Shown piece after piece: positions 21,215 through 62,969 of a stretch of 64,000 nucleotides of DNA. The notes beneath the pieces were generated by a model that was given only the letters and a program-made list of their open reading frames with translations, ran no database searches and was not told the DNA's origin. This DNA comes from Paraphysoderma sedebokerense. Taxonomy: Eukaryota > Blastocladiomycota > Physodermatomycetes > Physodermatales > Physodermataceae. The number at the start of each line of letters is the position of its first letter. Within the stretch, counting starts at the first letter, position 1. The translations under genes were made by a program, and so were the position numbers. The DNA lies in NCBI GenBank assembly GCA_025602915.1, contig JAHLJZ010000088.1, positions 32,865 through 96,864 of the forward strand, read 5' to 3'.

Positions 21215-22912
21215 ATGGATTCTCAACCGCTGGAACCATTGACATTCAAATCGTGGCTGTCCCTCGCAACATTCATTCTCACAATCATTCCTATTTTTCG
21301 TCCGACAAGCATAAGGATACAAAAAATTCGAATACACTTTAATTTCTCGACAGCACCTATCATCGGAGTCATCTTCTTACTCATCACGACCTGCATTGGA
21401 GTTAACGAACTTTCATCTGGGATAATTGGGGACCCAAAGTCATTACAACCATGGGCTATCTTAGTGTTATTTATGTGTATGGCTTATTTATGTATAAGGT
21501 GAGTATTAAGACATTACTCATTCTCATGCAATTTTCTAGTCAATTTCTTAATGGATCGCTAACTTAACCGTCACGTCCGTTCTGTTTCACAGCTTAGATG
21601 CAACGGGAATTTTTGAATACATTGCATGGAAAGCTGCCTGGAGCGCAGGAAACAGCGCTCGCAAGTTGTTCTTTTATTTCTTCCTGCTATCCTCGATCTT
21701 GACGTTATTTACGTCCAACGGTACGTTGTCAAGCTATCGTTCTTTTCTTCCCTTTGCCTTCACTAATTATTGACGTCCCTTTCAGACATTGTGATCTTGA
21801 CCTTGACTCCTATCATCATCTCAACAGCAAAGTACATAAAAGTTGATCCTTTTCCGTTCCTATTTATTCAATTCTTTGCTGCCAACACTTGGTCTTCGGC
21901 TCTTTACGTCGGAAACCCAACAAATATTATCATCGCCTCAGCATACAACTTCAACGTCTTGGAATTTTCAAAATACTTGGCTCTCCCGACAGTTGGTACT
22001 GGACTAACAGTTTACATTCTCACATTTCTTTTCTTCCGTCGAGATCTTCCACCGTCCATTGTCCCTCCGTCTGTCGAACTCAACAGTAAAAACGTGTTGA
22101 AGGATAAATCTTACGCGATCTTCGGTAGTGTGTGGTTATTGCTGTGTTTAATTACGTTATTTGCTACCAGCTTCATCAATGTACCAATTTGGATTATTAC
22201 TCTGGCATTTTCTGTTGTCACGATGGCGAGAGATTTGATTCATGATAAAAAACGGCGCAGTAATGCTGGAAATATAGACTCAATTGGGTTAGCCACTCTT
22301 GAATCGGGAGAGGTAGAGCAGTTGAGCGTTTTGTCTATTCAGGACGAGGAAGGAATCGAAGTAGCTCAAAAGAAAGACAAAAAGTCCAATCCAATAACGA
22401 ATTACTTCAGCCGAAATTTTCCGACGTTTCATACAGTCATGTATCGACTACCCTGGAGTGTTGTTCCTTTTGTTCTGGGGATGTTCACCATTGTAGAAGC
22501 CCTTTCTTCAAACCATCTTCTACCTAGACTATCCTACATCCTCGCTAAAGCTAGTATCTCTGTCCCCATTTCAATCTTCCTCATCACTTTCATATCCTGC
22601 CTACTATGTACGATTCTCAACAATCAACCTGCTTCAATACTGCTTACAAAGACCCTTCTTTCTCCTATGTTTGCTTCCCTCCCGCCGGCAATTACTAAAG
22701 GAGCAATGCTGTCCGCTATAGCGGGTTGCAACCTTGGTGCCTGTTTTTCTTTGACGGGCGCACTCGCCGGATTTCTATGGGTGGAAATCCTAAAATCCAA
22801 AAACGTCGAAATGTCAATGTGGAGGTTTTGCAAAGTCGGATTAATCGTGATGCCTGTCGCTACTGCCGTTGGATGTTTCATATTATGGGTTGAAATCGCC
22901 GCTTGGGGTTAA
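21215..22912 (+). CDS. ArsB/NhaD (ion transporter superfamily) membrane permease
   Basis: Three exons, join(21215..21498, 21593..21720, 21786..22912); 1539 nt, 512 aa, in frame. There are about ten to twelve hydrophobic helices. The SSILTLFTSNDIVILTLTPI segment and ANTWSSALYVGNPTNIIIA are the two signature loops of the ArsB/NhaD/P-protein family (the N-D and GNPTN substrate/ion-binding sites). A matching repeat appears at NNQPASILLTKTLLSP and SAIAGCNLGACFSLTGALAG. A charged cytoplasmic loop (HDKKRRSN .. KKDKKSN) separates the two halves. Substrate could be arsenite, dicarboxylate or sodium; the sequence does not decide. No arsenate reductase or ArsA-like ATPase is adjacent. Confidence 0.85.
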
Positions 22913-23341: not shown

Positions 23342-25452
23342 CTATGATCTATGATAGTGGTTGTCTTGAGGCGAGTACATATGTGGATTACCATCTCCAT
23401 TTTGTGGATACCACTGATTTGAGGTGTTTGGTTGTGAAGAGTGGTTAGAATTGTTATGATCCGAAGAGAAAGATGACAGTACTGACATGCGGTGCGAATC
23501 TGGCAAGTATTGAGCAGACATGTGTCGGTGAACATTTGAATTGTTTGAAGTCATGGGATGATGTGCTGTAACAGGGCTTTGTTGGGGGTAGGAAAAGCTT
23601 CCGTTGGTTGGTGAATGTATAGAATGAGAGTGCGATTGGTGCCATTGAAACATATTTGGATGATTATCATTAGGCGCCTGGGGAGCTAGTAGAGGGGACT
23701 GTGATGGTGGAAGAAATCTGTTTCCGGCGCCATTTTGTGAGTCACTGGGTGGTACTACTAACTCGGTAAACATCGGCTTTTGAACATCATCCTTGGGATT
23801 CCGTTTGCGATAGAGTTTAGCAGCACCAACCAACATTAATACGAAAGCCAAACCGCCAAATACTCCACCAAGAATGACTGGCAAGTTTGATGAATTCCCG
23901 CCAGTGGACTGGGCTTGTGGCGAAGCAAGAGAGCGCTTTTGTGGAGGATACGATACACCAGCGTAACTTAAACCGACGTCAAAACAGATCCCTGCTGAAG
24001 TCCAACTGCGCCAATCTCCTTGATTCTGAGAACAGTATGTATCAATGGCTTGCTGTTCAGTTAACGTCCTGCCGCCTTCCTTATACGTGCCGTCCGATTC
24101 TATTTAACGAAGTCAAGTTAAAAGAGAGTATTCATTTGTTATTCACTCGCGCTACATACCCTTGAATGGTCCACAGAAGCCAGCTGCAGAACAACACATC
24201 CCGAACGGACATGTAGAGTTGGGGTTATTTTTCCCGCACACAGGTCGTCCTGTACCGTCTCTAATTAGCCTATCAGGCTCTGGTAACTGCTTTTCATTAC
24301 ATTTTCGATCCGCCATCGGCAAGTTCGTAGCTCCTTCGCCTGATTCAATTACGTTTGACCAAGTTTTGAATTCTCCAGCGGGGATGCCAATCTGTGGAGG
24401 TGCTCGATTTGGGCAATTATCCGCTACACATACTCCCAAGTTATTGGCATTGTTGAAGTATCTGCATTGACCCGACTCCGTGGTAAATGGATCACCCCCA
24501 GTGAAAATGGGTTTCGATTTCGGTTCTGTTGGTCCACCTTCGATGTATAAATCCGAACAACTGTAATACTCCCCAAGAGCTTGACCACCGCCGTACCAAA
24601 CCCATTGTAGACTGAATAAATACATTTCAACAACATTTCCTTGAGAAATCTAAACAATGTGGGGAGCTTGCTACATACCTGTAGGCACCGTCCTGTAGCC
24701 AACTCGGAATATGGGCATAAGTAAAGCAGGGATTCTTGGAACCATTGGCAGGATTGCTAATTTAATTGGAATGTACCATAATCCGTTTGTCAGTACGCAT
24801 ATATCGTCAACCCACTTTCTCCGATCAACTTACGAATCTAATCCCTCCGGGTCACTTAGCAAGTCTGCTCGACAATGAGATTCATAACATGATAAGTGAA
24901 ATATGTTTTCATTGAAAGATTGTTGATTATCTGTTTTCTCGTATGAGGCTTCTCGATACAATTAGATGAGTAGGAAACCGATTAGAGACATTATGTTAGG
25001 TTGATGTGGCGTTCAGCATTTGAGCTTGAAAATATTGAGGTGATAGATTATCACAAACTCACCTAACGATAGTCTAACAAATCCTCCAGTATGATTATTC
25101 CGCGGCCACTCAACTCTGATTTGTTCACCCCTCTTGTATACCTTCACTGAATCTTTTGGAGGTGGGTTACCCTGCTTTGGGCCGTCACATGTGGCGGTAC
25201 ATAGATTCTGATTTGGACTCTTGTTGGTAGAGGACGCAAGATTACCTGGGCAACATCCTGTGTTGGTATCAGCTTGGTTTTGCCTATATTATTGTCGTTA
25301 CAGTCAGCACGGAGATGTTCAGAAGTCTGCGGCGGTAAATCAAGGATAACTTACCTGGTGATTGGAGAGGTCATGTAGGAATGCCCCATTAAGAATGAGG
25401 TTAGAGTGGAGAGAATCCAGACTGAGATAATCAGTAATCTTGGTGTAGCCAT
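23342..25452 (-). CDS. Membrane-anchored LPMO-like protein with hevein-type chitin-binding domain
   Basis: Six exons, join(23342..24099, 24160..24611, 24679..24756, 24834..24951, 25063..25283, 25355..25452), complement; 1725 nt, 574 aa, in frame. A signal peptide (MATPRLLIISVWILSTLTSF) ends at MG-HSYMTSP, so the mature chain would start with His, the first copper ligand of lytic polysaccharide monooxygenases. WPRNNHTGGFVRLSL could give the second His, and LQWVWYGGG..EYYSC is the typical C-terminal strand. After a Cys-rich linker comes CPFGMCCSAAGFCGPF, a hevein/CBM18-like chitin-binding motif. A Ser-rich spacer, one transmembrane helix (LPVILGGVFGGLAFVLMLVGA) and a His/Asn/Ser-rich cytoplasmic tail end the protein. 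It is probably cell-surface and chitin-directed; the CAZy family is not assigned. An upstream in-frame ATG (25623) was not used because it would bury the signal peptide. Confidence 0.78.
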
Positions 25453-36449: not shown

Positions 36450-37751
36450 GTGATGAACCGGCTATATTCGCTTTCCCGTCCTCTCTTACGAAGTATTGGT
36501 GTCAAGACAACCAAATCGACATGTTTATCTCCACTCTCGGCAACTCAATCGAGATACTTTCATGTCGCTGGAGTCAACGCTTCCGATAAATTATTCGTGG
36601 TATGCATCTCCCGCAGCTCTGAGTGTTTGAAAACATTGTTTATTGCTATGCTCTTATATCAAGTTCTGTCACGATTTGGCTGTCTGGTGAACGTCATGAT
36701 TAATAATAATATCTCTCTTTACAAATTTGCATATCGTATTTTTACTTTTGCGTCAAACTCAATAATTACAGCACCGAGACAGCTCTACCAACAACCCTAC
36801 TGTTCCATTCAAATTCACCGCTGAAAATATGAAGCGAGCGCAAGAAATCATTTCAAAATATCCTCCACAATACAAAAAGGCTGCCACGATACCGCTATTG
36901 GATTTAGGACAACGACAACTAGGTTGGACTAGTATCAGTGTAATGAATGAGGTGGCGAAAATTTTGGAAATGCCTCCGATGAGAGTCTATGAAGTTGCCA
37001 CATTTTATACGATGTTCAACAGGTTAGTGGGGCGTTTGATTTCCCTCTGACTTGAACTTCACTTGTTGTATCTTCCTTGGGTTTCGGTTTAGTGGAACTT
37101 TAATTCCAGTTGAATCGCATCATTCTTCTCATTGCATCTCCTTTTTATGACCTACCACACTCCCTTCTATCTCTCTCCACACGTTTCCTTCACCACAACC
37201 TTATGTTGTATTGCCACACATTTGCCTTTCCGCTCGTTAACTTAAATAATTCATCAGGGAACCCGTGGGCAAATACTTTCTACAAGTCTGTACCACAACT
37301 CCATGCGAACTCTGTGGATCGACTGATATCGTGAAAGCGATTGAAAAGCATTTAAACATTAAGATGGGAGAAACGACACCTGATAATCTTTTCACTTTAG
37401 TGGAAGTGGAATGTGCTGGTGCTTGTGTGAATGCCCCCGTTTTAGCTGTGAACGATGACTACTTCGTAAGTACCGTTCTACTGATTTTCTAATTCTTTAT
37501 CAGTCTAGCTGATCCGTTCACTAACCACAAAATAAACCTTTATCACATATTCACTCTAATAGGAAGACTTAACTCCAGAAACAACCGTTTCCATTATCAA
37601 AGAACTTCAGCGAGCCGCAAAATCAGGCGGAAAACCGAGTCTTAAAATTGGTCCTCAGTCTGGTCGCAAAGGCTGTGAACCCAAAACTGGATTGACTAGT
37701 TTAACGAAAGAACCTTGGGGTCCTGGGTTCAAAGTTAGGGCTGATTTGTAG
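36450..37751 (+). CDS. NDUFV2: NADH:ubiquinone oxidoreductase 24-kDa subunit (complex I)
   Basis: Four exons, join(36450..36599, 36772..37022, 37258..37465, 37563..37751); 798 nt, 265 aa, in frame. An Arg/Ser-rich mitochondrial targeting sequence ([19 protein letters not shown]) precedes the thioredoxin-like [2Fe-2S] subunit. Signatures are [67 protein letters not shown] (first two Cys ligands), [12 protein letters not shown] (second pair) and a C-terminal [18 protein letters not shown] with KEPWGPG. It holds the N1a cluster beside the 51-kDa FMN subunit in the mitochondrial matrix arm. Its presence implies respiring mitochondria rather than hydrogenosomes lacking complex I, though hydrogenosomal relatives of this subunit exist. 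Confidence 0.95.
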
Positions 37752-38311
37752 ATAACTTTTGTATTCCTAGAATACCGATAAATCGCGGAATAATGGTGAA
37801 CAGAGTAGAGATTGTGACGACTTGATGTGATCATGAATTTAAGAAATATATTCAGACACTGCAGTGGCTTTATCCGATGTTGTCAAGCATTTCTATGACG
37901 TTCACCTATAGCTTAAATAAATGTCAGGATAAAGTGTCTTTAACACGGCGAATTCGCCTCACCAGCCAATGTGAAAGGTCAGACGAGGCACTCACTAGCA
38001 AAGAACTGAACCTACCAACGAGGCTGACCAGGGTTGAATTCAATTCAAAATATTTGAAACTATATACTCCTGGCAATGCCTGCATGTGAGCTAGTCAACG
38101 AGATTGTTAATAACTAATTGCCACGAATACATTGTATATGCGAGATTATTCCCAAGTTCTTGAACGTTAAATGCATGAGTGGATGTAAACAGATCTCCCG
38201 AGTGATTTTCACCAGACGCGAACAGAAAAGTCCAATAACCAAACTACCCATTTTATATATTTCCATTAAATACTTCCCGATTTCCAAATCAATCAGAATC
38301 CTCCAACCATT
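37752..38311. other. Intergenic
   Basis: 560 bp between two plus-strand genes. Open frames on both strands (for example 38114-38359) overlap and lack motifs. No RNA gene was recognised. Confidence 0.4.
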
Positions 38312-41049
38312 ATGGATCGAGCAACATCTGTGGCAAGTGGTGAAGGGAATGAAGGACATGGTATATTATCTCGTCCTGATCATTTTTCAATTTATGCTCC
38401 ACCTATTCATCTAGCAATGCATCAGTATGTCCTGGATACTGACGCTGTTGTGTTGTATTTCGTTACATTTTAATAATGTATGATATCGATAATGCCTCTT
38501 CATGATCGCAAACTCTGGTATCCTAGTCGAACAAGAACTTCATAAACTGCAAAGACAGTATCGAATCATGGATACTGAACGAAAAGCGTATAGCGAAGAA
38601 AGCAGATTACTGATTAAAAAGCAACGGTGCGCAAAGTTTTATCTTAATTGAATTTTACTTTTCAATTTGATTTATCGAGTGAGAGCGGGTGGTTCAAACG
38701 AGATGGTTGGAGATACTAGACTTTTTAACTGACGTCTTGATGTTTCTATCTGGTGATCTTAATTTAAAATTGTTTGTATTCAGATCTTCAATTGATCAGC
38801 TGAAAAGGGATAATGAGTATCTCTTGGATGAACTTAAATTGATTGAACAGCGGTTAGAGGATACCAAGAAGAATGGAAGTCAAAGCAAGAAAGCCGAAGT
38901 TCTTCAAGAACAGTTGGGTATGTCAGGGTTGTATTGAACTGAAATTGGCATTTTAACTTTTCGTCTGCTTATTTACAACTTCATTTATCCGAAACCCTTT
39001 CTGGTTTATTATATCAATACATAAAGACATATATCAACGTAAAATGAAGACAGTGGCACAAACCATTGCCAATCTAGACGCTCAAATTACTCACCTCAAC
39101 AAAACCATAGCCGAACAGAGGGAAGCAATAGGGGGGATGAACTCTTCCACCCAAATTTCTCAAGCGACTCAAAAACAGATTCGAATACTCGAAAATAGAC
39201 TTGACAAGGCGTTTGTTAAGTTTAATAAAGCGCTAGCGGTGAATAAGAAGATGAGAGCAGTGATTGATAACTTGAGACGCGAAAGAATGGTATTTGGGAA
39301 TGTGTACAGGAAGTTTGAAAAAGAGTTGGGCGATCAGAAAAAGTATATGGCTGAAATCATTGAAAGCAGTAACAGTGCGTACGAGGCTAGGTATGTCAAT
39401 TTTTTACATTCAGAGAATTTGCATTTTTTTTGGAGTCATTACAATATATGGGTTCGAGTGGCTCCTAATCTATTTGAACTCTCTCTTTCCGTATTCATGT
39501 ATGAATAGAGATGAAGCCCAAGCTAAGATTGTCGCGCTGAAAGAGAAAGCGGAAAAAGAGTATCAGGCTTACATACAAGAAATCAAAGAATTAGATCGCA
39601 CATTAGAACAGGATCGTAAATTGAAGAGCTTTTTGGCTACGAAGGCTGCGGACCGCCTCGGCGAGAATATCAATGCAGATGGTCCGAAAAAATTGAAGCG
39701 TTTGTATTCGATTTCATGCATAGAGTCGTTATTTTGTTCTAATAGTTTTTCTGTACGGAATAACAATGAATTAGAAAAAACTGTTGTGGCAAAGTCATCT
39801 CAAGATTTACTCTCCGACACTGTCTCAAATTACGAAAAAGCTTTTGCGACTATCAAGCAGGTCACCGGTGTTAATGATATTGACGAATTAGTTCACCGAT
39901 TTAAGGATGTCGAAGATCAAAACTTTTCGCTCTTCAATTATGTCAACGAAATTAACAACGAGATCGAGAAGCTCCACGAAGAAATTAACGCCATTAAACG
40001 AGAGATGAGTGTCTTGGAAATCGAAAACGCGAGCCTGGAGGAACAGAACAAAAAGATTATGAAAGAGTTGGAAACAAAACTACAACATGTGACTTCCAAA
40101 TGCGAATTATACGAAAAGAAATACACAGAGGCGACGGAAATCATCGAAACACTATCAAACGGTGTTGAACGATTGACCAAAGCATTCCACAACACACAAA
40201 CCACAGTGATTAATACTTCCATCACAAATTCCACATTGGGTAATCCTCCTCCACTTGGCAGTACGAGTCCTGATGCGGTTAGTAGTTCGGTAATTGGTTC
40301 GGGCTCACATCTTGGATCGCCGACTTCACCTACTTCTCCCACCTCACCAGCCGTTTCCACCACCACGACAATCACTGCCCCATTTACCGTGTCCGATAGA
40401 CTATTGAATACGACCGTGAATGATAATTCGTTGATCTCTTTCTTCGGGTTAATTGAGCAGAAAACGAATGACTTATTAGTACTGCACTATTTGACTGCGC
40501 ATCCTAAAAAATTGGGCAGTGCGGGTCCGAACGGCGCGGGTCTGGTGCCAGGCGGAAATACTGGAAATCCGAATCAGGGCGTAGGAGATGACGATAAACC
40601 TATTGCCATGGGTGGAATCGGCGGGCTCGCATCAAATGGACCCACGGCGCCAATGGGTGTTATTACCATTCAAGCTCCTTCAACTGGGTAAGTTGATTCA
40701 GGAAATCATCAAGCGTTTTAGATGATAGTCCCTTGTTGTCATTGGGTCAATGAAGGAAACAGAATTCATTTAACGTGTTTGTTCCTTGGAATCTATAGTG
40801 ACAACGACACGGACGGAGAAGATGAGGAGGAAGAAAGGCCTCTCACCAGGGAAGAGTTGGCCAACAAGACAATGAAAGGGGTATGATTTGAGTTTACTAT
40901 CTTTGATATTTCACATCCGTATTTTATTTTCTTCGATTGCTGACATTTTTTCTCGCGGGAATGGCGATTGAATCCTTCAGTTGACCAAACGATTACAACA
41001 GGGCGGAACAAAGTCCAAACGACGAGGAGGCAGGCGCGTTGTAGATTAA
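38312..41049 (+). CDS. Outer dynein arm docking complex coiled coil (ODAD1/CCDC114/CCDC63 type)
   Basis: Seven exons: join(38312..38360, 38527..38626, 38784..38917, 39027..39390, 39509..40687, 40799..40880, 40981..41049); 1977 nt, 658 aa, in frame. The N-terminal coiled coil has ELHKLQRQYRIMDTERKAYS and EESRLLIKKQRSSIDQLKRD, then ENRLDKAFVKFNKALAVNKK, RAVIDNLRRERMVFGNVYRK and SNSAYEARDEAQAKIVALKE. These track CCDC114/CCDC63 and the Chlamydomonas DC2 docking subunit, which attaches outer dynein arms to axonemal doublets. After ~440 residues the protein becomes a Ser/Thr/Pro- then Gly/Asn-rich linker and ends with an acidic patch and a basic tail (TKSKRRGGRRVVD). The GTATAT donor at 38361 is the only phase-compatible choice I found for exon 1. 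A 42-nt GT..AG segment (39704-39745) inside exon 5 is in frame and could be an extra intron. Confidence 0.85.
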
Positions 41050-41729
41050 TATTTAAGGAAGAAGCCTATATGGCCGTTGAGGATTATAGTTTATCGAGAG
41101 ATATTTTTAGCAGTCGGGTATTAAGTATAACGTTGCACATGGATGATGTATCTTGGTTTTATTGGCAACAATAACATATTACTAGACAATAGAGTGCAGT
41201 CATTCAAATCAGTATTGAGTGTATGAAATGCAGTGCGATAAATGCGAAGCAATCAAAGCGATGGTGGCTTTTCCGCACTTAATTTGGGAATGATAATAAC
41301 AAGCTCTGATTCAAGATGTCCTTTGTCCCGTATTGACACAGCGCGGGCTGATTGGGCGGGGACAGTGGTTGTGATTGGAAGCGACGTATCAGCGACAACC
41401 ATATCATCGTCGCAGGGACATGCGCATCTTTGTCGAGAGAGTGATACATTCTCTGTGCAATGTCATGAAGTTGGCTCTTGTGCTCTCCGTCCCGATATCC
41501 CCACATCATTGAGTGATTTCCACGGACAGTCCACCATCTAAGCATAGTCAATAATATATCCACACACGCCAGTTGATGCACCCCTGTGTATTGTCTCGCT
41601 TAATTCCCCACAACAATCCCAGTGCCAAACTCCCACTACAAATCCGCAGTTACCGCCACCTCCTGTTGCAAGACGTTAAAACGCTGGGCCCCGATCTAAT
41701 ACATTCATCTTTTGATATACCTTGGACTG
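41050..41729. other. Intergenic
   Basis: 680 bp upstream of the small membrane-protein gene. It includes a GC-box/CCAAT-like stretch (GATTGGGCGGGGACAG near 41350). Open frames on both strands are mirror images of each other and lack motifs. Confidence 0.4.
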
Positions 41730-42613
41730 ATGAATTTACCGAGCCCATCTACAAAGGGCACTGCTCTTGTATTATCGCTGATATCGCTAATTGGCACAAT
41801 TGCCATCGTCGTTGATCTATGTTTTGCTGGTAAGTTGATGTCCCCTTGATCTCAAAATTGTCCATGGGCGCAGGCCATTTCTGCAGACTACTCTTGTAGT
41901 CAACATCGGTGTATCATAAAGAATATAAGGCAATACAGAAACTAATTTTGCGCTTTGTCTTTTCCATCCCGCTTTGTGTACTTGATTAAATTTCATCAGG
42001 CCGAATTGAAGTCGGTTTCTTTGGGTTCGCTGTGGCCATTTCAATTGCATTATCCGCTATTGGACAAGTTTATGGAATTACTTGTTTACTTCCTGGTCGA
42101 AATGTTGATGTAAATATTCTCTCCTCCGTACTTGCGGCTTCGGATACCGTCTGTCCCTCATTTACGTTTTTACTGACTTGACCATCCTGAATCATTCTTG
42201 CTCGAACCTGTTCATAGCCCGGGAAATTGTGGAATTATTTATTAATCCTTTGTTATGTCGTTTTAACAACATTGGTAGTAGCTATATTCAGTTTCTTTGA
42301 ATACAGAATAACTTTCTACGCTATCCTTGAAGTGATACAGGTCTGTTTCAACTTTTTTTTTTTGCCGTCCCGTTTTACCTCGTTTCATCTCTTCCTGTCC
42401 CGGACATACCTCACAGTACCTATTCTTAACTTACTAATTTGCCTCTCAAAACAGATACCTTTGCTTTTCTTTGTGTCTACTTTGTATAAGAGTGTTAAAA
42501 GTCAACAGGCCGCAAGGCGGAGGAAGCCGAGTTCCGAAACTACCATGTCGCAAGTCCAGATAAATAACGAGAGGTCTAGTTCAATTACATTAAGACCGGA
42601 CGAAGCTGTGTAA
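41730..42613 (+). CDS. Small four-helix membrane protein, unknown function
   Basis: Four exons, join(41730..41829, 42000..42109, 42218..42340, 42455..42613); 492 nt, 163 aa, in frame. The start MNLPSPSTK follows an in-frame stop at 41697-41699. Four hydrophobic segments are clear: GTALVLSLISLIGTIAIVVDL, VGFFGFAVAISIALSAIGQV, LLILCYVVLTTLVVAIFSFF and FYAILEVIQIPLLFFVSTLY. A basic Ser-rich tail (KSVKSQQAARRRKPSSETT .. RSSSITLRPDEAV) follows. The 4-helix layout recalls tetraspanin-like or MARVEL-like proteins, but the signature CCG motif of tetraspanins is absent and I recognise no family. Splice phases and hydrophobic continuity across every junction support the model. Confidence 0.7.
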
Positions 42614-43347
42614 AGGAAGACGGAACGGATGACGCTATATCGTATACTTTGGACTGTTGTCTGTTGTGGTGAGCACTTGTGGTTACTTTGGTCCACTGTT
42701 GACTCTTGGCCCTAAGATATGTTAGTTGTCTGTGAACTTTGTTCAAAATGGCAAGACTTGGTTTTTTCAGTTTGTTCAATTCAACTATAGCGTTACGAAA
42801 TGATAAAGTCAAGTTTGCACTGTTAATTTGTGTCATTGTAGTATTAGATTTATTGTAGACTCCTCCTTTGTACATAGTCTCTGAGTATCCTGAACGGTTT
42901 TTGTATCTTAACTATTTTAATATTACTGCTATTCTTCAGTGCCGTTTCATATATGTAGGAAATAATCTTGTCTATTGTCTAGCATTTATGTACAATGGTC
43001 GATCAAGTCATGTTCAACTTCAAATGGTATGCAACTGTACATCGCTTCCATTGTAACTGAAATGGTGACCTGCAGTTGCGAAAATGCACAGAAGCTTGGA
43101 TTGCACGCAAGACACCAGGAAGAACACGGTTTTTAAATAAGATAATTGATATTTGATTTGTATAATTGATACATAAGAGTTTTTAATATGCTACAAATAA
43201 AACTACGAGGTATTCAACTAAAGCTACGCTAGAATACCCAGGTTATACTACAAATCGATGATTCATAAAATCCGATTAAATTAAATTAACAAAATTTTCG
43301 CTGTAAAACTAATATAACTAACATTTTTGTGTAACTTCCATAAAAAT
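42614..43347. other. Intergenic between convergent genes
   Basis: 734 bp between the stops of the four-helix protein and the SH3 protein. It is AT-rich towards the right end. No gene was supported. Confidence 0.4.
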
Positions 43348-46311
43348 TCACTCTTCTTCTTCTTCGTCTGATTCGTATCCTTCCAAAGCCATCATAGGAA
43401 CCATTCCAAATAATTGTAACCGTTTAGAATAACCATAAGCCCATTGATCTTTGAATACTTTATAAATCTCGACTTCGTCATTTTCCCATAACTCTAACTC
43501 ATCGGAACGTTGCGGTTCGTATTCGATTTCAACTAGTAATACGTCAATTGGGGAATCGGGTATCGGAGATGAAGAAGAGTTAGACGAAGAGGTCATTGAA
43601 ATCAGGGTAGCCGGTCGATCACTTGATCCGCCTGTTCCCTCATTCGAAAATGGAACTGAAGAGGGAAGCGTGTACTCTGTAAAATGGGAAATAGAGCTAG
43701 TTCTTCGCGAGAATCGACGAGATATCGATATTTTAGATGACCGGGATCTGATTGATTGTTGATCACTTTCGCTTGACCAACCAGAAAATGCAGACATTGA
43801 CTTTATAGTATGAACAGCTGGTTGGATATGAGTTTTCTGGGCGGAAGCTACGTTGACTTCGTCATTCGGTTCCTCAAATAGGTACGCATCTGTTGGAGCT
43901 TCGGGAAGAGGAGGAAGCGACGGTGCCGAGAATCGGCGCGAAGAGTCTTCATAATAACCGACATTTTGATAATCAATTTGACTTTCTGCCGGATATTCGT
44001 CAATCTTGTGATGGCTGGCCGCATTTGAGAAAGCAGATTCGGTTTCTTCCTCCAATCTTTTATTTTGTGCGCTTACCCTTGATTTCCTAATATTTCGAGC
44101 AACAAAGAATGCAACCGCGAGGACAGCAGCAACTACACCACCAGCGATACCAGCATAAACCCCAACATTCACCGAATTTGGGCTTTCTGCAGAAGATTCA
44201 ACGAGTGCTGGAGGAGCAGGGACATTGTTTTCAGCTTGTGGTGCATTTGGAGTCGGTGAAATGGGGCCAGGAGTCGCTGACTGGCTGGGAGTAGCGGTTC
44301 CAACAGATCCAAAACTAGTAGAAGATGAAACGACAGAAGGGATCTTTTGAGCTGGCGGAGTTCCTGGGGGAGGGGTAATTGGAGGTACAGGATTCGGAGA
44401 TACGACGGGAGGTGGAGATGGTACCGTAGGACCTTTCTTTGCAGGTGGAAACAATATGAAGTTTGGAGGTTGTGGAGCTGGCTGAGGAAGTCTTTGGGCA
44501 GGGGGTTCAACAGGCCGCGGAAGTGGTAGCGGATTTTTTTGAGCAGGAGGTTGAACAGGCCGCGGAATTGGTTGAGGAGCTTTTTGGGCAGGCGGTTGAA
44601 CAGGAAGAGGAGCAGGTTGCGGAGGCAGTAATGGAGGAAGTTCGGGATTTGGAGGGGGTTGTTGAGGAGGTGATGGAGGAGGAATTGGATCGATTGGAGG
44701 ATTGACTGGAGGATTGACTGGAGGATTGACTGGAGGATTGACTGGAGGATCGATAGGACGATTAGGAGGGTCGATAGGACGATTAGGAGGGTCGATAGGA
44801 CGATTAGGAGGGTCGATAGGACGATTAGGAGGGTCGATAGGACGATTAGGAGGGTCGATAGGACGATTAGGAGGGTCGATAGGACGATTAGGAGGGTCGA
44901 TAGGACGATTAGGAGGATTGAAAGGAGGATTGGGGGGATTGGAAGGAGGAGTTGAAGGAGTAGGCGGAGTTGGAGGAGTAGGCGCAGTAGGAGGAGTAGG
45001 CGGAGTTGGTGGAGTTGGTGGAGGGTTAGGACGAGGAGTAGGGGGATTAGAAGGAGTCGATGGATTAGAAGGAGTAGATGGCGGAGATGGAGTATTCTTC
45101 GGGGGTTGCTGAGGAGGTTGTTGAGGAGGTTGTTGAGGAGGTTGTTGAGGAGGTTGTTGAGGAGTTTGCTTAGGAGTTTGCTTAGGTTGCTCAGATGGTC
45201 GTTTGGGAGGTTGTTGCGGAGGTTGTTGCGGAGGTTGTTGAGAAGGTCGGTTATTTTTTGGTGACTGAGCAGGTGGGGGATTTTGATCCGGCTGAATCAA
45301 GTCGGTTTCATTTTTCTTCTGCGGAACCGGCGATTGTGATCTCTCGGGTTGGGAAGTTTCATTCCTTCCAGGGGCTGGGACAGTCGGTTTGGAGTTATTC
45401 TTTGGAGTTGGAGCTCGAGTGTTGTTCAATGGTTGACGTGGTGGAGGAGAAGAGGACTCGTTTCGGGCGGGAGAAGTCGCATTTTTGAGAGGATTCTGGG
45501 CACCAGATTCAATCTTCCTCTGAGGAGGAGGCGGCAATTGTGATTCTCTTTGAGGTTCATTTTTGGTTGGATTTGGGGTAATCGATCCAGTATTATCGTT
45601 CAAAGCAGGTTGAGGGGTTCCCTTTTTCTCGGATTGTGAAGGAGGTTTTTGCGGTTCATTTTTGGTTGGAGTCGGCGTATTTGATCCGGTGTTATTCTCT
45701 GGAGCCGGTTGAGGGGTTATCTTTTTCTCCGATGGTGGAGGAGGTCGGGGCTGTGGCGAAGAAGCTTGGTCTGGTTGCGGAGAAGGCCGAGAGTCCTGAC
45801 GAGCGGGAGGATTTGGACGGGGCGTTGGAGATGAGGCAGCCGAGGTAGAAGATGATGATGATGGAGTGCCTTTCTTGCCGTTTTGCGCATTTCCATCGTT
45901 CCTTTGGTTATTCTGGCCGCCAGCATTTGTATTTTTGTTCGGAATAGGGGATTGCTGACTTCCGGGACCAGAAGGAACAGCGGGCGATGGTGTAGTGCTC
46001 CCGCCACTACCACTCGTCGGATTACCGCCTTTTGGATTGCCACCAGCATTATTACCAGCAGCAGGTTTCCCTGCATTGGCACCGGCATTATTACCACCAC
46101 TGCTACCACCGGCAGTTTTCTTCGCAGCATTCCCGCCGTTGTTGTTTGCTTGCGCTTGAAATTCAAAGGCTCCGACAGAAGAAGTGGGGTCATTAGATTG
46201 CGGATTTTCGACTTCGTCATTGACTTTCAGCACTGCAGCGGGCCTTGAAAACGCTGAATTCGGGGCCGCCGAACATAACAGCAAAAGGACGAATATAAGA
46301 GTAAATTTCAT
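43348..46311 (-). CDS. Proline-rich single-pass membrane protein with cytoplasmic SH3 domain
   Basis: Single exon, 987 aa. A signal peptide (MKFTLIFVLLLLCSAAPNSA) is followed by an Asn/Gly-rich region and ~550 residues of Pro/Asn/Thr/Gln-rich ectodomain. That includes runs of QQPP and eight tandem PPNRPID units. A transmembrane helix lies at about residues 715-739 (VGVYAGIAGGVVAAVLAVAF, followed by basic RNIRKSRV). The tail is Ser-rich and ends in an SH3 domain (VEIEYEPQRSDELELWENDE, YKVFKDQWAYGYSKRLQLFG, MVPMMALE) with an acidic terminus (DEEEEE). Fungal surface proteins of this plan act as wall or signalling sensors; an ortholog cannot be named. The ectodomain is probably heavily O-glycosylated. 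The lack of introns contrasts with most neighbours. Confidence 0.85.
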   Translation of the reverse strand: MKFTLIFVLLLLCSAAPNSAFSRPAAVLKVNDEVENPQSNDPTSSVGAFEFQAQANNNGGNAAKKTAGGSSGGNNAGANAGKPAAGNNAGGNPKGGNPTSGSGGSTTPSPAVPSGPGSQQSPIPNKNTNAGGQNNQRNDGNAQNGKKGTPSSSSSTSAASSPTPRPNPPARQDSRPSPQPDQASSPQPRPPPPSEKKITPQPAPENNTGSNTPTPTKNEPQKPPSQSEKKGTPQPALNDNTGSITPNPTKNEPQRESQLPPPPQRKIESGAQNPLKNATSPARNESSSPPPRQPLNNTRAPTPKNNSKPTVPAPGRNETSQPERSQSPVPQKKNETDLIQPDQNPPPAQSPKNNRPSQQPPQQPPQQPPKRPSEQPKQTPKQTPQQPPQQPPQQPPQQPPQQPPKNTPSPPSTPSNPSTPSNPPTPRPNPPPTPPTPPTPPTAPTPPTPPTPSTPPSNPPNPPFNPPNRPIDPPNRPIDPPNRPIDPPNRPIDPPNRPIDPPNRPIDPPNRPIDPPNRPIDPPVNPPVNPPVNPPVNPPIDPIPPPSPPQQPPPNPELPPLLPPQPAPLPVQPPAQKAPQPIPRPVQPPAQKNPLPLPRPVEPPAQRLPQPAPQPPNFILFPPAKKGPTVPSPPPVVSPNPVPPITPPPGTPPAQKIPSVVSSSTSFGSVGTATPSQSATPGPISPTPNAPQAENNVPAPPALVESSAESPNSVNVGVYAGIAGGVVAAVLAVAFFVARNIRKSRVSAQNKRLEEETESAFSNAASHHKIDEYPAESQIDYQNVGYYEDSSRRFSAPSLPPLPEAPTDAYLFEEPNDEVNVASAQKTHIQPAVHTIKSMSAFSGWSSESDQQSIRSRSSKISISRRFSRRTSSISHFTEYTLPSSVPFSNEGTGGSSDRPATLISMTSSSNSSSSPIPDSPIDVLLVEIEYEPQRSDELELWENDEVEIYKVFKDQWAYGYSKRLQLFGMVPMMALEGYESDEEEEE
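44753..44923 (-). repeat. 21-bp tandem repeat encoding PPNRPID units
   Basis: About eight near-identical 21-bp units (GGACGATTAGGAGGGTCGATA on the plus strand) lie inside the SH3-protein gene and encode the heptapeptide Pro-Pro-Asn-Arg-Pro-Ile-Asp. The near-perfect DNA identity suggests recent unit expansion or homogenisation. Downstream units (GGATTGACTGGA, encoding PPVN) form a second 12-bp tandem block at about 44695-44745. Confidence 0.9.
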
Positions 46312-47092
46312 CCTTTGTTGAGATTCTTCAGTATTTGCTCAATGACTGCATGTCTTGACGGTGGGGACTTTGTGTACGTTGGTTACTCGATGCTGATTAT
46401 TTGCGAGTCAGATAGCAGAAAGTTGAGTAGGAAATAGTCGAACGAAAAAAGAATTACAACAGACTGTTTTCGAAAGAAGGGGTTAGATGCAAGGAAGGAA
46501 TAGTTCCATTTCGCTCTCAATCTCGACTCCACTTTCCTCCCACCCTCATTGCGATTGTACAGCATGCATAAAGCCCACTCCAAGCCCCTCTCAATCCACA
46601 GCACGCGTCTATCACTATAATTTGGCATTGTTCTGCCGCGTTTGTTGTCGTTTATTGCGAATGACTCCAGGCGTCACACAAGCTAACCTCACTAGAATAC
46701 TTCCGCATATTAACGCATTCATTTATTCCGCCCCCACATGAGTGTAATTTATCGGTCCAGAAGAGGTTTGTTGTGGCAGTAGGATGGGCCTGACAATCGG
46801 GGGGCCACAATTAAGAACACTGGAAGTCAGATAGCTGATGATTTCTGAGGCTGCTACCAGTCATAAAACCAGAGATATAGGTATTATGCTTACAAGACAT
46901 GGACCAAGTGAGCCAGAGAGCGGGGTGACATTACAAGAATCCTTATTGGTGTTGTCAATGGCCATCTGTGGATGTGATTACTGTGAAGGTGTAGAACCAA
47001 CTGAAATATTTTCATATTGTACATTGTTTGAAAGGGTGGTCCAGACTAAATTGTTGCGTAAATATAAACAATTTCCATTTATTATACTTCTC
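46312..47092. other. Intergenic (tandem minus-strand genes)
   Basis: 781 bp between the SH3-protein start and the cyclophilin stop. Open frames at 46487-46741 and 46838-47098 lack motifs. No tRNA-like element was seen. Confidence 0.4.
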
Positions 47093-59834: not shown

Positions 59835-62800
59835 ATGTCGGCTTCTTCATCAAACGACTCACTTTCTAACCTCGTTGATCTCTCTCGTCCCGTTTCAATA
59901 CCTCATCAACTCGACCAGTATGACTCTCCCTTTGAATTCAGTACATCAACCAATACATCCAGCACACAATCGGCGGTATATTCGAAACAACAACAGCAGC
60001 AACAGAGCTCACAAAAGCTACAGTCTCAGCAGCATTTACAATTACAGAACTTCTTTATCCCCCCACTTCCGGGCTTGGAAGAGAAAAAGCGTCAAGATCT
60101 TTTGTTTCAAGAAGCAATACAAGAGTACAAATCCACACTTGCATCACTACCGAATAATGAGATTCTATCAAAGTTCAAGGTAGAATTCGAAAAGCTCTAC
60201 AAGTCACTTGTAAAATCTCAATCAAATGCGACAAAACATTTCGACACATGTCTTGTTTTACATAAAGAGTACTATGAAATCAGTTACAACGCTAAAAATT
60301 TACAGGACACGTATTCAAATGATGAGCAAACTATTAAAAATCTGAAAGGACAAATTAAGAAAGCAAACGAATTTTTGGAATCTGCCAGGATTAGGGAGGA
60401 GAGAGCAAAAGAACAATACAGACTAATCAAACAGGAAATCAATGATCTGAAGAGTACCATTTTTCAAGGTGTTGGATTATCAACTTCACAAGAAAAAACG
60501 TTAAACGATTTGATGTATGCGAAGGAAGAGGCCACTAAAGAATTGGAAGCGGAATTGGACAAGATTTCGCAATTGAGAAACAACATCTCTGACATTTTGG
60601 AAAAGATGAGACTAGCTGATGCCGACAAACGGCGATTGGAAGCCGACATTCAGCTTTTAAGGGAGAAAAATGCCGCTCGAAAATTGGACATCGACAGCGA
60701 AATGCGGAATAAGGAACGGTTGGAACTAGAATTGAAAGATTCAAGATCTATCGTTTCGGCAAAAATGGCCGAAGTGAAGCAAAAGCAAGACGGTGTTAAC
60801 AGAGCTGCCGAAGATATTTCAATGTTAGAAAGTCAGCTAAAAGGTCAACGACAACTACTGGAGAAGCTATCGAAGGATCAAAAAAGTCTTGACGCTCGTG
60901 CAGCAAAATACAGAGAAGAATGCGACGAACAAATCATGCAAACAAGAGGAATAATGGACGAGAACACCCTTAAACTGGAAGAGCTGAAAAGACGAGAACA
61001 AGAGTTGAAGAAAATTAGAGGGGAGGTTAAAAAGGTGATGAAGATCAAGGAATCGCTGAGCGAAAAAATTACCCAAATAGAGGTTCGAAAAATCCAAGTT
61101 GAATCAGATAGAAAGAAAATTAAAGCAGAATGCGTACATTTACAAGAAGATTATGCACAAATTCACAGCGAAATTGAAACTGACAAGAAGATACTTGAAG
61201 ATTTCGAGCGCGAGAAAGGAATTATTTTATCTTATTCGAAGAAGCTGTTGACAGATTCGTCTGATACTGAACATCTTTTGGCCATACAAAAACAAACAAA
61301 GCGTAATCTTGAGCAGGAGATTCAAAGAATTCAAAAACTTTTAGCTAATCAAGAAAATCATTTGAGAACTCTAAAGGAGGAAAGAGACAAATGCGTTAAC
61401 AGGTCGATACAACTTCAAGAAAGCATCGTCTCGGATATCAATGAGATTCAATCCAAAGAAAAAGCAATAATCGAGTACAAAAGGCAAGTGTTGGAGTTAG
61501 AGACCAAACTGAAACATCAACAAAATCTCTATGAAGGTATCCAGCAGGATAGAAATGTTTATTCAAAGCACCTTGTGGACACGCAAAACGAAATTTCAGA
61601 GACCAAACGACAGCTCAAGTTAACCAATTTTAAAATTAATGGCTACAAAGAAGAATTGATGTCAAAGCAAGAATCTCTAACCAGAGAACAAAGTGAAAGC
61701 GATAAATTGGATAAGGAGATCAAATCGATAAACTCAGAAATTGAAAATATGAAAAATCAGATCAACCTTTCCGCTAACTACATACGAAACCAAGTAGCAG
61801 ATAAAGAGAAGCTATCAACTCACCTCAACGAAGCCGAAGCAGAAAAAGATCGTCAACAGAATGCCCTTGCTTTGGTCGTCGCCGAGAGAGATAAACTCTC
61901 AGCTCAACTGAAAAAACAAAATGACGAATTATCAACAATTTACAATAAAATCAAAGCACATCAGTTCAATCTATTAAGATCGGAGAAACATTACATCGAA
62001 CGCTCGAAAACCTTAGAATCAATAATGGAGGATATTCGGAATCTCAAACGCGAGAAGTCAAAGTTGGATTCAAAAGTTAGCGACATAGATTCTATGAAGA
62101 AATCGATCAGTCAATTAAAGGCTAAAATACTTCACGATCAAACTAAAATCCAAGCACTCGAAACTGAGCTGTCGAATCCAGTGAATGTTCATCGGTGGAG
62201 GAAATTGTCGGGGTCCAATCCTAGATTACTCGAGTTAATTCAACTGAGTCAAACTTTGCAACGAAAAATTGTAGAAAAAACTAAAGAAGACAAGGAGAAG
62301 GAAACACTCATTAGAGAAAAAGAAATGGTTTACCTGCAGCTGCGCAATGTCCTATCCAAGCAAATGACATTTTCCAATCCTTCTTCGACTGCCGGTGGTA
62401 CTCAGGTTTACGAACAAGTGGTGGAATTTGAAAGAATCCTAAAGGAAAAATTAACGAGTGCCAGATACCTAAATGACGAATTCAAAATGTATACTAGTAA
62501 GGTAAAAGAGTTGAAGTACAACATCTCCAAACTGGATCGATCGATAGAGGAGGTCAAGAAGAAGTATTTCGAAGTCAGAAGGTCGACGGGTGGATTAAAC
62601 GTGAAATTCGACAAATCAAGTAACGGCGGACATAACTCTTCAGTCAGTATGATTAAGGCTCAAGAAAATCTGGAAAATACGGAGGAAAAAATTGTCGACG
62701 AAGATTTGGCGGGAAGTCAATTAGCAATTACGGATTTTTCAAAATTGCCGCCTTTACCATCCTCCAAAACGAATTCAAATCCTCAACTCTTCGAAACTAA

Positions 62801-62969
62801 TCATAAGGATGTAGCAGTTTCGGGTCCTGAAATTCAATTTAAGTCTCCGTCAATCTCGGATTCTTCAATAGTTCAGATTGGACTGAATTCAACAGAAGTT
62901 AATGGTACTGCAAGCGCAAAATCAGAATCGGTTTCGAATCAGTCGCAAACAACGCAAAAAGAGAAATAA
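59835..62969 (+). CDS. CFAP58: CFAP58/CCDC147-like axonemal coiled-coil protein
   Basis: Single exon, 1044 aa. The first ~75 residues are Ser/Gln-rich (QQQQQQSSQK). Residues ~80-900 are almost continuous coiled coil. Family motifs: EAEKDRQQNALALVVAERDK, IYNKIKAHQFNLLRSEKHYI, NPVNVHRWRKLSGSNP and LNDEFKMYTSKVKELKYNIS followed by VKKKYFEVRR. This set is that of CFAP58 (CCDC147; related to Chlamydomonas MBO2/FAP58), an axonemal and basal-body protein needed for normal flagella. The C-terminal ~130 residues are a Ser/Asn-rich disordered tail. A large intronless gene in an intron-rich neighbourhood is notable. The ATG is preceded by AAA. Confidence 0.9.
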   Translation: MSASSSNDSLSNLVDLSRPVSIPHQLDQYDSPFEFSTSTNTSSTQSAVYSKQQQQQQSSQKLQSQQHLQLQNFFIPPLPGLEEKKRQDLLFQEAIQEYKSTLASLPNNEILSKFKVEFEKLYKSLVKSQSNATKHFDTCLVLHKEYYEISYNAKNLQDTYSNDEQTIKNLKGQIKKANEFLESARIREERAKEQYRLIKQEINDLKSTIFQGVGLSTSQEKTLNDLMYAKEEATKELEAELDKISQLRNNISDILEKMRLADADKRRLEADIQLLREKNAARKLDIDSEMRNKERLELELKDSRSIVSAKMAEVKQKQDGVNRAAEDISMLESQLKGQRQLLEKLSKDQKSLDARAAKYREECDEQIMQTRGIMDENTLKLEELKRREQELKKIRGEVKKVMKIKESLSEKITQIEVRKIQVESDRKKIKAECVHLQEDYAQIHSEIETDKKILEDFEREKGIILSYSKKLLTDSSDTEHLLAIQKQTKRNLEQEIQRIQKLLANQENHLRTLKEERDKCVNRSIQLQESIVSDINEIQSKEKAIIEYKRQVLELETKLKHQQNLYEGIQQDRNVYSKHLVDTQNEISETKRQLKLTNFKINGYKEELMSKQESLTREQSESDKLDKEIKSINSEIENMKNQINLSANYIRNQVADKEKLSTHLNEAEAEKDRQQNALALVVAERDKLSAQLKKQNDELSTIYNKIKAHQFNLLRSEKHYIERSKTLESIMEDIRNLKREKSKLDSKVSDIDSMKKSISQLKAKILHDQTKIQALETELSNPVNVHRWRKLSGSNPRLLELIQLSQTLQRKIVEKTKEDKEKETLIREKEMVYLQLRNVLSKQMTFSNPSSTAGGTQVYEQVVEFERILKEKLTSARYLNDEFKMYTSKVKELKYNISKLDRSIEEVKKKYFEVRRSTGGLNVKFDKSSNGGHNSSVSMIKAQENLENTEEKIVDEDLAGSQLAITDFSKLPPLPSSKTNSNPQLFETNHKDVAVSGPEIQFKSPSISDSSIVQIGLNSTEVNGTASAKSESVSNQSQTTQKEK

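Follow-up and report, generated by a model that had tools for sequence, protein, structure and literature searches.

Proteins with an LPMO fold that are held, or predicted to be held, at the cell surface include GPI-anchored LPMOs, X325/Bim1, and powdery mildew LPMO-like proteins. GPI anchors are described in some members of the AA9, AA14, AA15, and AA16 families and in X325 (PMC8615602), and some of the powdery mildew proteins are predicted at the cell membrane (PMC8035642). In insects, LPMO15-2 (AA15 group II) combines a signal peptide and an LPMO domain with a predicted C-terminal transmembrane span and is described without the cysteine repeats of group I (PMC9156745). Among fungi, CWR-1 of Neurospora crassa (AA11-X278) is an LPMO that acts on chitin, carries an extension putatively binding chitin, and functions in cell-cell recognition; the matching text describes no helix for it and assigns eight helices to its partner CWR-2 (PMC9550227). 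For UmAA10 of Ustilago maydis, an AA10 enzyme, action on the chitin of fungal walls has been shown, and its long disordered C-terminal region has been proposed as a hold on the wall; here, too, the matching text describes no helix (PMC10617569). Cel1 supports wall integrity in Cryptococcus, and Bim1 has been found to be without LPMO activity (PMC10166503). A review of zoosporic fungal enzymes suggests modification of the organism's own wall as a possible role of AA11 in Rozella allomycis (PMC6690862), and a study of chitin use by the chytrid Rhizoclosmatium globosum names LPMO in its reference list only, by term search (PMC12115818).

The window analyzed here is the whole stretch of 64,000 nucleotides from Paraphysoderma sedebokerense. 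One gene on its minus strand encodes a predicted type I membrane protein in which an LPMO-like head is followed by a hevein-like motif, a transmembrane helix, and a long tail. A preliminary description had set this protein against LPMOs that are, for the most part, freely secreted, a contrast that is softened by the predicted helix of the insect AA15 protein (PMC9156745) and the GPI anchors of several families (PMC8615602). The window protein shares its leader, LPMO domain, and C-terminal span with LPMO15-2, but the latter is an insect AA15 protein, and the four members of the new family that were scanned do not match the corresponding LPMO_10 model. It resembles CWR-1 in joining a fungal LPMO to a putative chitin-binding extension but has a hevein-like module in place of X278, and it differs from UmAA10 in family and in having a predicted helix. 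The lipid anchor of the GPI-linked LPMOs, where one is stated, leaves no cytoplasmic part, unlike the arrangement seen here. No report of a fungal LPMO with both a hevein-like module and a transmembrane helix was found among the matches listed from the open-access literature. The features of the gene are as follows.

23342..25452, minus strand: whole gene; six exons, 573 aa, with GT-AG introns and homologous exons in paralogs; type I membrane protein by prediction
25384..25452, minus strand: signal peptide, residues 1-23, by hydropathy; cleavage score of 5.32 before His24
25363..25383, minus strand: HSYMTSP, mature N-terminus, residues 24-30, with the candidate copper ligand His1; His and Ser invariant in all five family members
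25079..25099, minus strand: NNHTGGF, residues 95-101, with the candidate second brace residue His97; NNH and GGF invariant in all five members
24584..24692, minus strand: DGAYSLQWVWYGGG strand, residues 167-180, spanning the intron 24678-24612; aligned with AA11 and AA9 chains
24557..24571, minus strand: EYYSC, residues 185-189, with Tyr186 or Tyr187 as the axial candidate; aromatic at both positions in all five members
23972..24322, minus strand: cysteine block in common with the C62 protein, residues 268-364, including the hevein-like core; alignment at 48% identity, eight cysteines in each
24167..24238, minus strand: hevein-like core CGKNNPNSTCPFGMCCSAAGFCGP, residues 296-319; PF00187, E value of 2.8e-6
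23924..23947, minus strand: PPQKRSLA, residues 373-380; stalk segment with a dibasic site and possible Kex2-like cut, from sequence only; absent from the C62 protein
23810..23884, minus strand: transmembrane helix, residues 394-418; mean hydropathy of 2.44 over 19 residues (394-412), followed by RKR
23345..23809, minus strand: tail, predicted to be cytoplasmic, residues 419-573; high content of Ser, Asn, Pro, and His

All the elements named in the preliminary description (leader, His1, NNHTGGF, strand, hevein-like motif, helix, and tail) are thus found on the minus strand between positions 23342 and 25452. The 573-aa chain requires five GT-AG introns, which separate exons at 25452-25355, 25283-25063, 24948-24834, 24756-24679, 24611-24160, and 24099-23342 (minus strand). 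One of the acceptors could lie three bases away, which would add a single Glu residue. A single open exon (24611-24160) contains both the end of the LPMO domain and the hevein motif, and the fusion of the two is therefore independent of the splice prediction. Two adjoining genes instead of one were considered and rejected: exon 5 carries the WVWYGGG strand and the hevein core in a single frame, and the C62 protein, a homolog of the membrane half described below, aligns without a break across the last intron of the window gene.

The LPMO fold of the head is well supported by profile comparisons. A profile built from five family members matches 17 distinct sequences in the PDB at an E value of 10 or better, and all 17 are LPMOs, counting those titled merely endoglucanase or GH61, which we take to be AA9 or AA11 LPMOs. 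The best matches are the AA9 protein LPMO9F (E value of 1.4e-6) and two AA11 sequences (1.6e-4 and 3.3e-4), the others scoring 0.011 or weaker; a column-shuffled version of the same profile gives no matches. A four-member profile finds 5 distinct sequences at the same threshold, again all LPMOs. Single sequences match weakly: the window protein finds an AA11 chain at an E value of 0.027, and paralog C finds xylanase Z at 0.037, ahead of AA11 at 0.07, so that the relation to LPMOs becomes clear only from family profiles.

The domain libraries give a different picture. In the four members scanned (the window protein and its three paralogs on contig C122), neither PF03443 (AA9) nor PF03067 (LPMO_10, covering AA10 and AA15) has a match at an E value of 10 or better, and the latter has none genome-wide at an E value of 1 or better. 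The X325/Bim1 family, PF20238, matches one of the four, which is not the window protein, at an E value of 0.019, below the curated cut-off. None of the Pfam LPMO families is significant for the members scanned, and a look-up by name yields no AA11 model. The NCBIfam model NF043005 (SCE4755 family polysaccharide monooxygenase-like) matches all five members weakly, with a best E value of 1.1e-5; it comes from the NCBI prokaryote set, and the window member reaches 16 bits against a cut-off of 75. Two further Pfam matches, Orthopox_B11R (two of the four members, best E value of 0.0011) and Kre9_KNH (one of four, 0.066), were set aside as likely chance. The proposal of an LPMO-like enzyme therefore stands on homology, with its shuffled control, and on conserved histidines, but not on membership in the AA9 or LPMO_10 families. 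At the level of sequence, this appears to be an LPMO clan not named in the libraries used. AA11 chains match it, but AA9 LPMO9F scores better.

The family has at least four more members in the same genome (27.3 Mb in 195 contigs). A search with the LPMO part finds 8 places at an E value of 10 or better, namely, four exons of the window gene, three tandem places on C122, and one on contig C3. A purpose-written spliced aligner recovers full domains for the three C122 paralogs, with scores of 349 to 354. For the C3 paralog, it gives 156.4 with paralog C as the query, whereas ten shuffled versions of the C3 DNA reach no more than 48.4 with that query; the C3 model is unsure in the middle, where other queries, scoring 129 to 185, place the introns differently. 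The C122 genes lie in tandem within positions 37001-47000, and one of them has a long Lys/Tyr/Gly-rich stretch in what is likely its last exon. The C3 gene, around positions 307500-309400, has a leader, an HSWMSCP start, and an apparent C-terminal CBM19 domain (E value of 6.3e-7, in a piece hand-joined over one intron), which points to chitin. By eye, none of the intron positions of the window gene coincides with those of the tandem paralogs, among which B and C have three in common. No hydropathy segment beyond the leader passes the threshold for a transmembrane helix in the models of the three C122 siblings, although the model of sibling B meets a likely intron at its end, which makes its tail less sure. 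Outside the source genome, tblastn finds no relatives in viral and prokaryote contigs, despite 304 and 17 pattern matches.

In all four paralogs, the leader is followed directly by His-Ser. The claim that the signal peptide exposes a histidine at mature position 1 is borne out by His24 after the hydrophobic leader and by the same histidine in each paralog. For the window protein itself, the cleavage site is nearly tied in approximate scores from a von Heijne matrix: the cut before His24 scores 5.32, second best by 0.05 to one five residues upstream (5.37). Cleavage just ahead of the histidine reaches 6.07 to 7.40 in the paralogs, where it ranks first in two and second in the other two. Invariant columns number 58 among four members and 29 among five; the latter include, in mature numbering, H1, N72, N73, H74, G76, G77, F78, W151, and C166. 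The second histidine proposed from NNHTGGF is likewise kept in all five, and the four-member profile alignment places it on His60 of the AA11 chain 4mah, presumably a brace residue. The WVWYGG strand noted after it is present as DGAYSLQWVWYGGG. Two adjacent aromatics in the EYYSC segment compete for the axial place, reading Y/W/F/Y/Y and Y/F/Y/Y/Y across the five members. By alignment, then, His1 and the NNH histidine form a candidate histidine brace.

The hevein-like module is divergent. Chitin_bind_1 (PF00187) matches it barely above the cut-off (27.9 against 27.8 bits) and only over profile positions 2-24 of 38; the corresponding block of the C62 protein, at 27.1 bits, falls below it. Searches with models for the AA families and for CBM18 were thus divided, negative for AA9 and LPMO_10 and just positive for the hevein family. 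The block contains eight cysteines, which align with eight in the C62 protein and the last of which are wider apart than in hevein, and the second half of hevein is replaced. In hevein, the aromatics of the QWGW stretch contact chitin; in the window protein, the first Trp is changed to Ala and the second to Phe. Of the chitin-binding module proposed earlier, the motif itself is retained, reduced to what appears to be a divergent, hevein-related half-module without one Trp, and its binding to chitin is putative.

The claim of a single transmembrane helix with a long cytoplasmic tail agrees with hydropathy, which finds one hydrophobic segment over the threshold besides the leader, and with the RKR that follows it and the tail of 155 residues; type I topology is supported. 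Histidine is concentrated in this tail, which is predicted to lie in the cytoplasm: it accounts for 15 of the 155 residues there but for only 5 of the other 418. Residues 268-429 align with a protein encoded on contig C62 (hand-spliced model) at 48% identity over 169 columns, through the helix and the first residues of the tail, with an E value of 7e-49 in a two-sequence comparison. The C62 protein differs from the window protein in that it ends in an SH3 domain (PF00018, E value of 5.5e-9), has no leader in the hand-spliced model, and has no LPMO domain detected by the genome search with the LPMO part or by eye in the upstream frames.

A genome search with the SH3 end of the C62 protein finds 19 places at an E value of 0.01 or better, two of which are C62 itself and one of which lies in the window. 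In five of the six places examined, the open frame that contains the SH3 match also encodes a strong hydrophobic segment ahead of it, and the three of those five scanned with Pfam all match SH3 models, below the curated cut-offs. These five frames look like an expanded receptor-like group. The place in the window, at 43348-46311 on the minus strand, is a 987-residue frame that starts with a leader and a long proline-rich outer part and continues through a hydrophobic stretch to an SH3-like end (E value of 0.0039 to the C62 SH3). Pfam shows nothing in it at an E value of 0.01 or better, and it looks like another member of the membrane-SH3 group. Given the identity to the C62 block and the hydrophobic segments at the SH3 places, the window protein resembles, in its base, a receptor-like group of membrane proteins. 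The window gene thus looks like an LPMO head that may have been placed on the stalk and helix of a receptor-like membrane protein encoded elsewhere in the genome, with the SH3 domain missing.

Two ORFs in the window match the flagellar proteins CFAP58 (59835-62969, plus strand, E value of 7.6e-44) and ODAD1 (39044-39508, plus strand, E value of 2.7e-26). These flagellar genes indicate a flagellated organism, and the genome is read as that of a zoosporic, chytrid-like fungus. The AA9 model matches 20 places in it, 18 of them over the cut-off, and the chitin synthase model matches 40 at an E value of 1e-6 or better, all of these places being exons or fragments rather than genes. Because 3 of 14 control genomes, all three of them bacterial, also have matches to the chitin synthase model, some of the 40 places with weaker scores may represent other enzymes; the top-scoring one (4.8e-204) is beyond doubt.

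The reading that we tentatively favor, at a little short of an even chance, is that of a plasma membrane LPMO that remodels the chitin of the fungus's own wall, with copper binding and activity both putative. The protein would cross the plasma membrane once, as a type I protein, with a copper LPMO as its outer end. With copper bound in a brace of His1 and the NNH histidine, the LPMO would introduce oxidative nicks in chitin at the boundary between new wall and membrane. Its cysteine-rich stalk would hold it near chitin, while the helix and tail would fix the protein in place and so confine oxidation to the part of the fungus's own wall that can be reached from the membrane. The strong chitin synthase matches and the separate AA9 matches make action on the wall plausible over nutrition: with chitin synthase, a separate AA9 set, and helix-free siblings, there would be little need of the window LPMO for feeding.

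The main rival, which we consider unlikely, is a sensor of the wall or of contact, in which the LPMO-fold head and the cysteine block recognize chitin or a partner surface, the tail signals inward, and catalysis is not the point. The stalk-helix block that the window protein has in common with a protein ending in SH3 fits such a role, as does the recurrence of hydrophobic segments in the frames with SH3 matches, and there is a precedent in CWR-1, whose catalytic activity is described as not needed for allorecognition (PMC9550227). However, the Pfam scan finds no SH3 or other signaling domain in the window protein, and no SH3 exon is seen past its stop in the three minus-strand frames read by eye downstream to position 22701. 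Both candidate brace histidines, moreover, are kept. The two readings may also be combined, although this strikes us as rather improbable: a copper oxygenase grafted on a receptor-like base would be a wall sensor that oxidizes the chitin it touches and reports via its cytoplasmic tail, in effect an enzyme-receptor for the state of the own wall.

Another reading, which we hold to be improbable, is that of a shed feeding enzyme. A Kex2-like cut after KR377 would free the LPMO with its chitin-binding piece to degrade external chitin, and a transcript retaining an intron would also give a soluble product. The dibasic KR (residues 376-377) of PPQKRSLA, between the cysteine block and the helix, makes release from the membrane possible, and reading through the intron 24159-24100 leads to a stop just past the hevein core. 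However, KR by itself is weak as a motif, the C62 protein, to which the stalk and helix align, is without the KR site, and three siblings that have a leader and are helix-free in the models are already present.

The least probable reading is surface copper capture in the manner of X325/Bim1, with the histidine site holding copper for import: it could draw on the weak Bim1-like match in a single member, on the LPMO-like, GPI-anchored, copper-handling X325 proteins (PMC8615602, PMC10166503), on bacterial metal domains with N-terminal His that are described as fused to membrane permeases (PMC12537917), and on the copper-binding YcnI described from Bacillus, but the Bim1 cut-off is not reached, the genome has a Bim1-like match of its own on contig C99 (28.1 bits against 27), the closest relatives among known structures are enzymes of the AA9 and AA11 families, and the His-rich tail lies across the membrane from where copper would be captured.

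The favored reading, an LPMO acting on the wall from the plasma membrane, bears on a question for which few tested cases were found: roles of microbial LPMOs in the organism's own wall have been tested for CWR-1, Cel1, and UmAA10. An LPMO that is fixed to the membrane by its own sequence would not easily be used for distant feeding and could therefore provide a clean case for such a role. Zoospores must build a wall on settling. The window gene also brings in an LPMO clan without a name in the libraries used and, through its predicted cytoplasmic tail, a route by which wall chemistry might be communicated to the inside of the cell.
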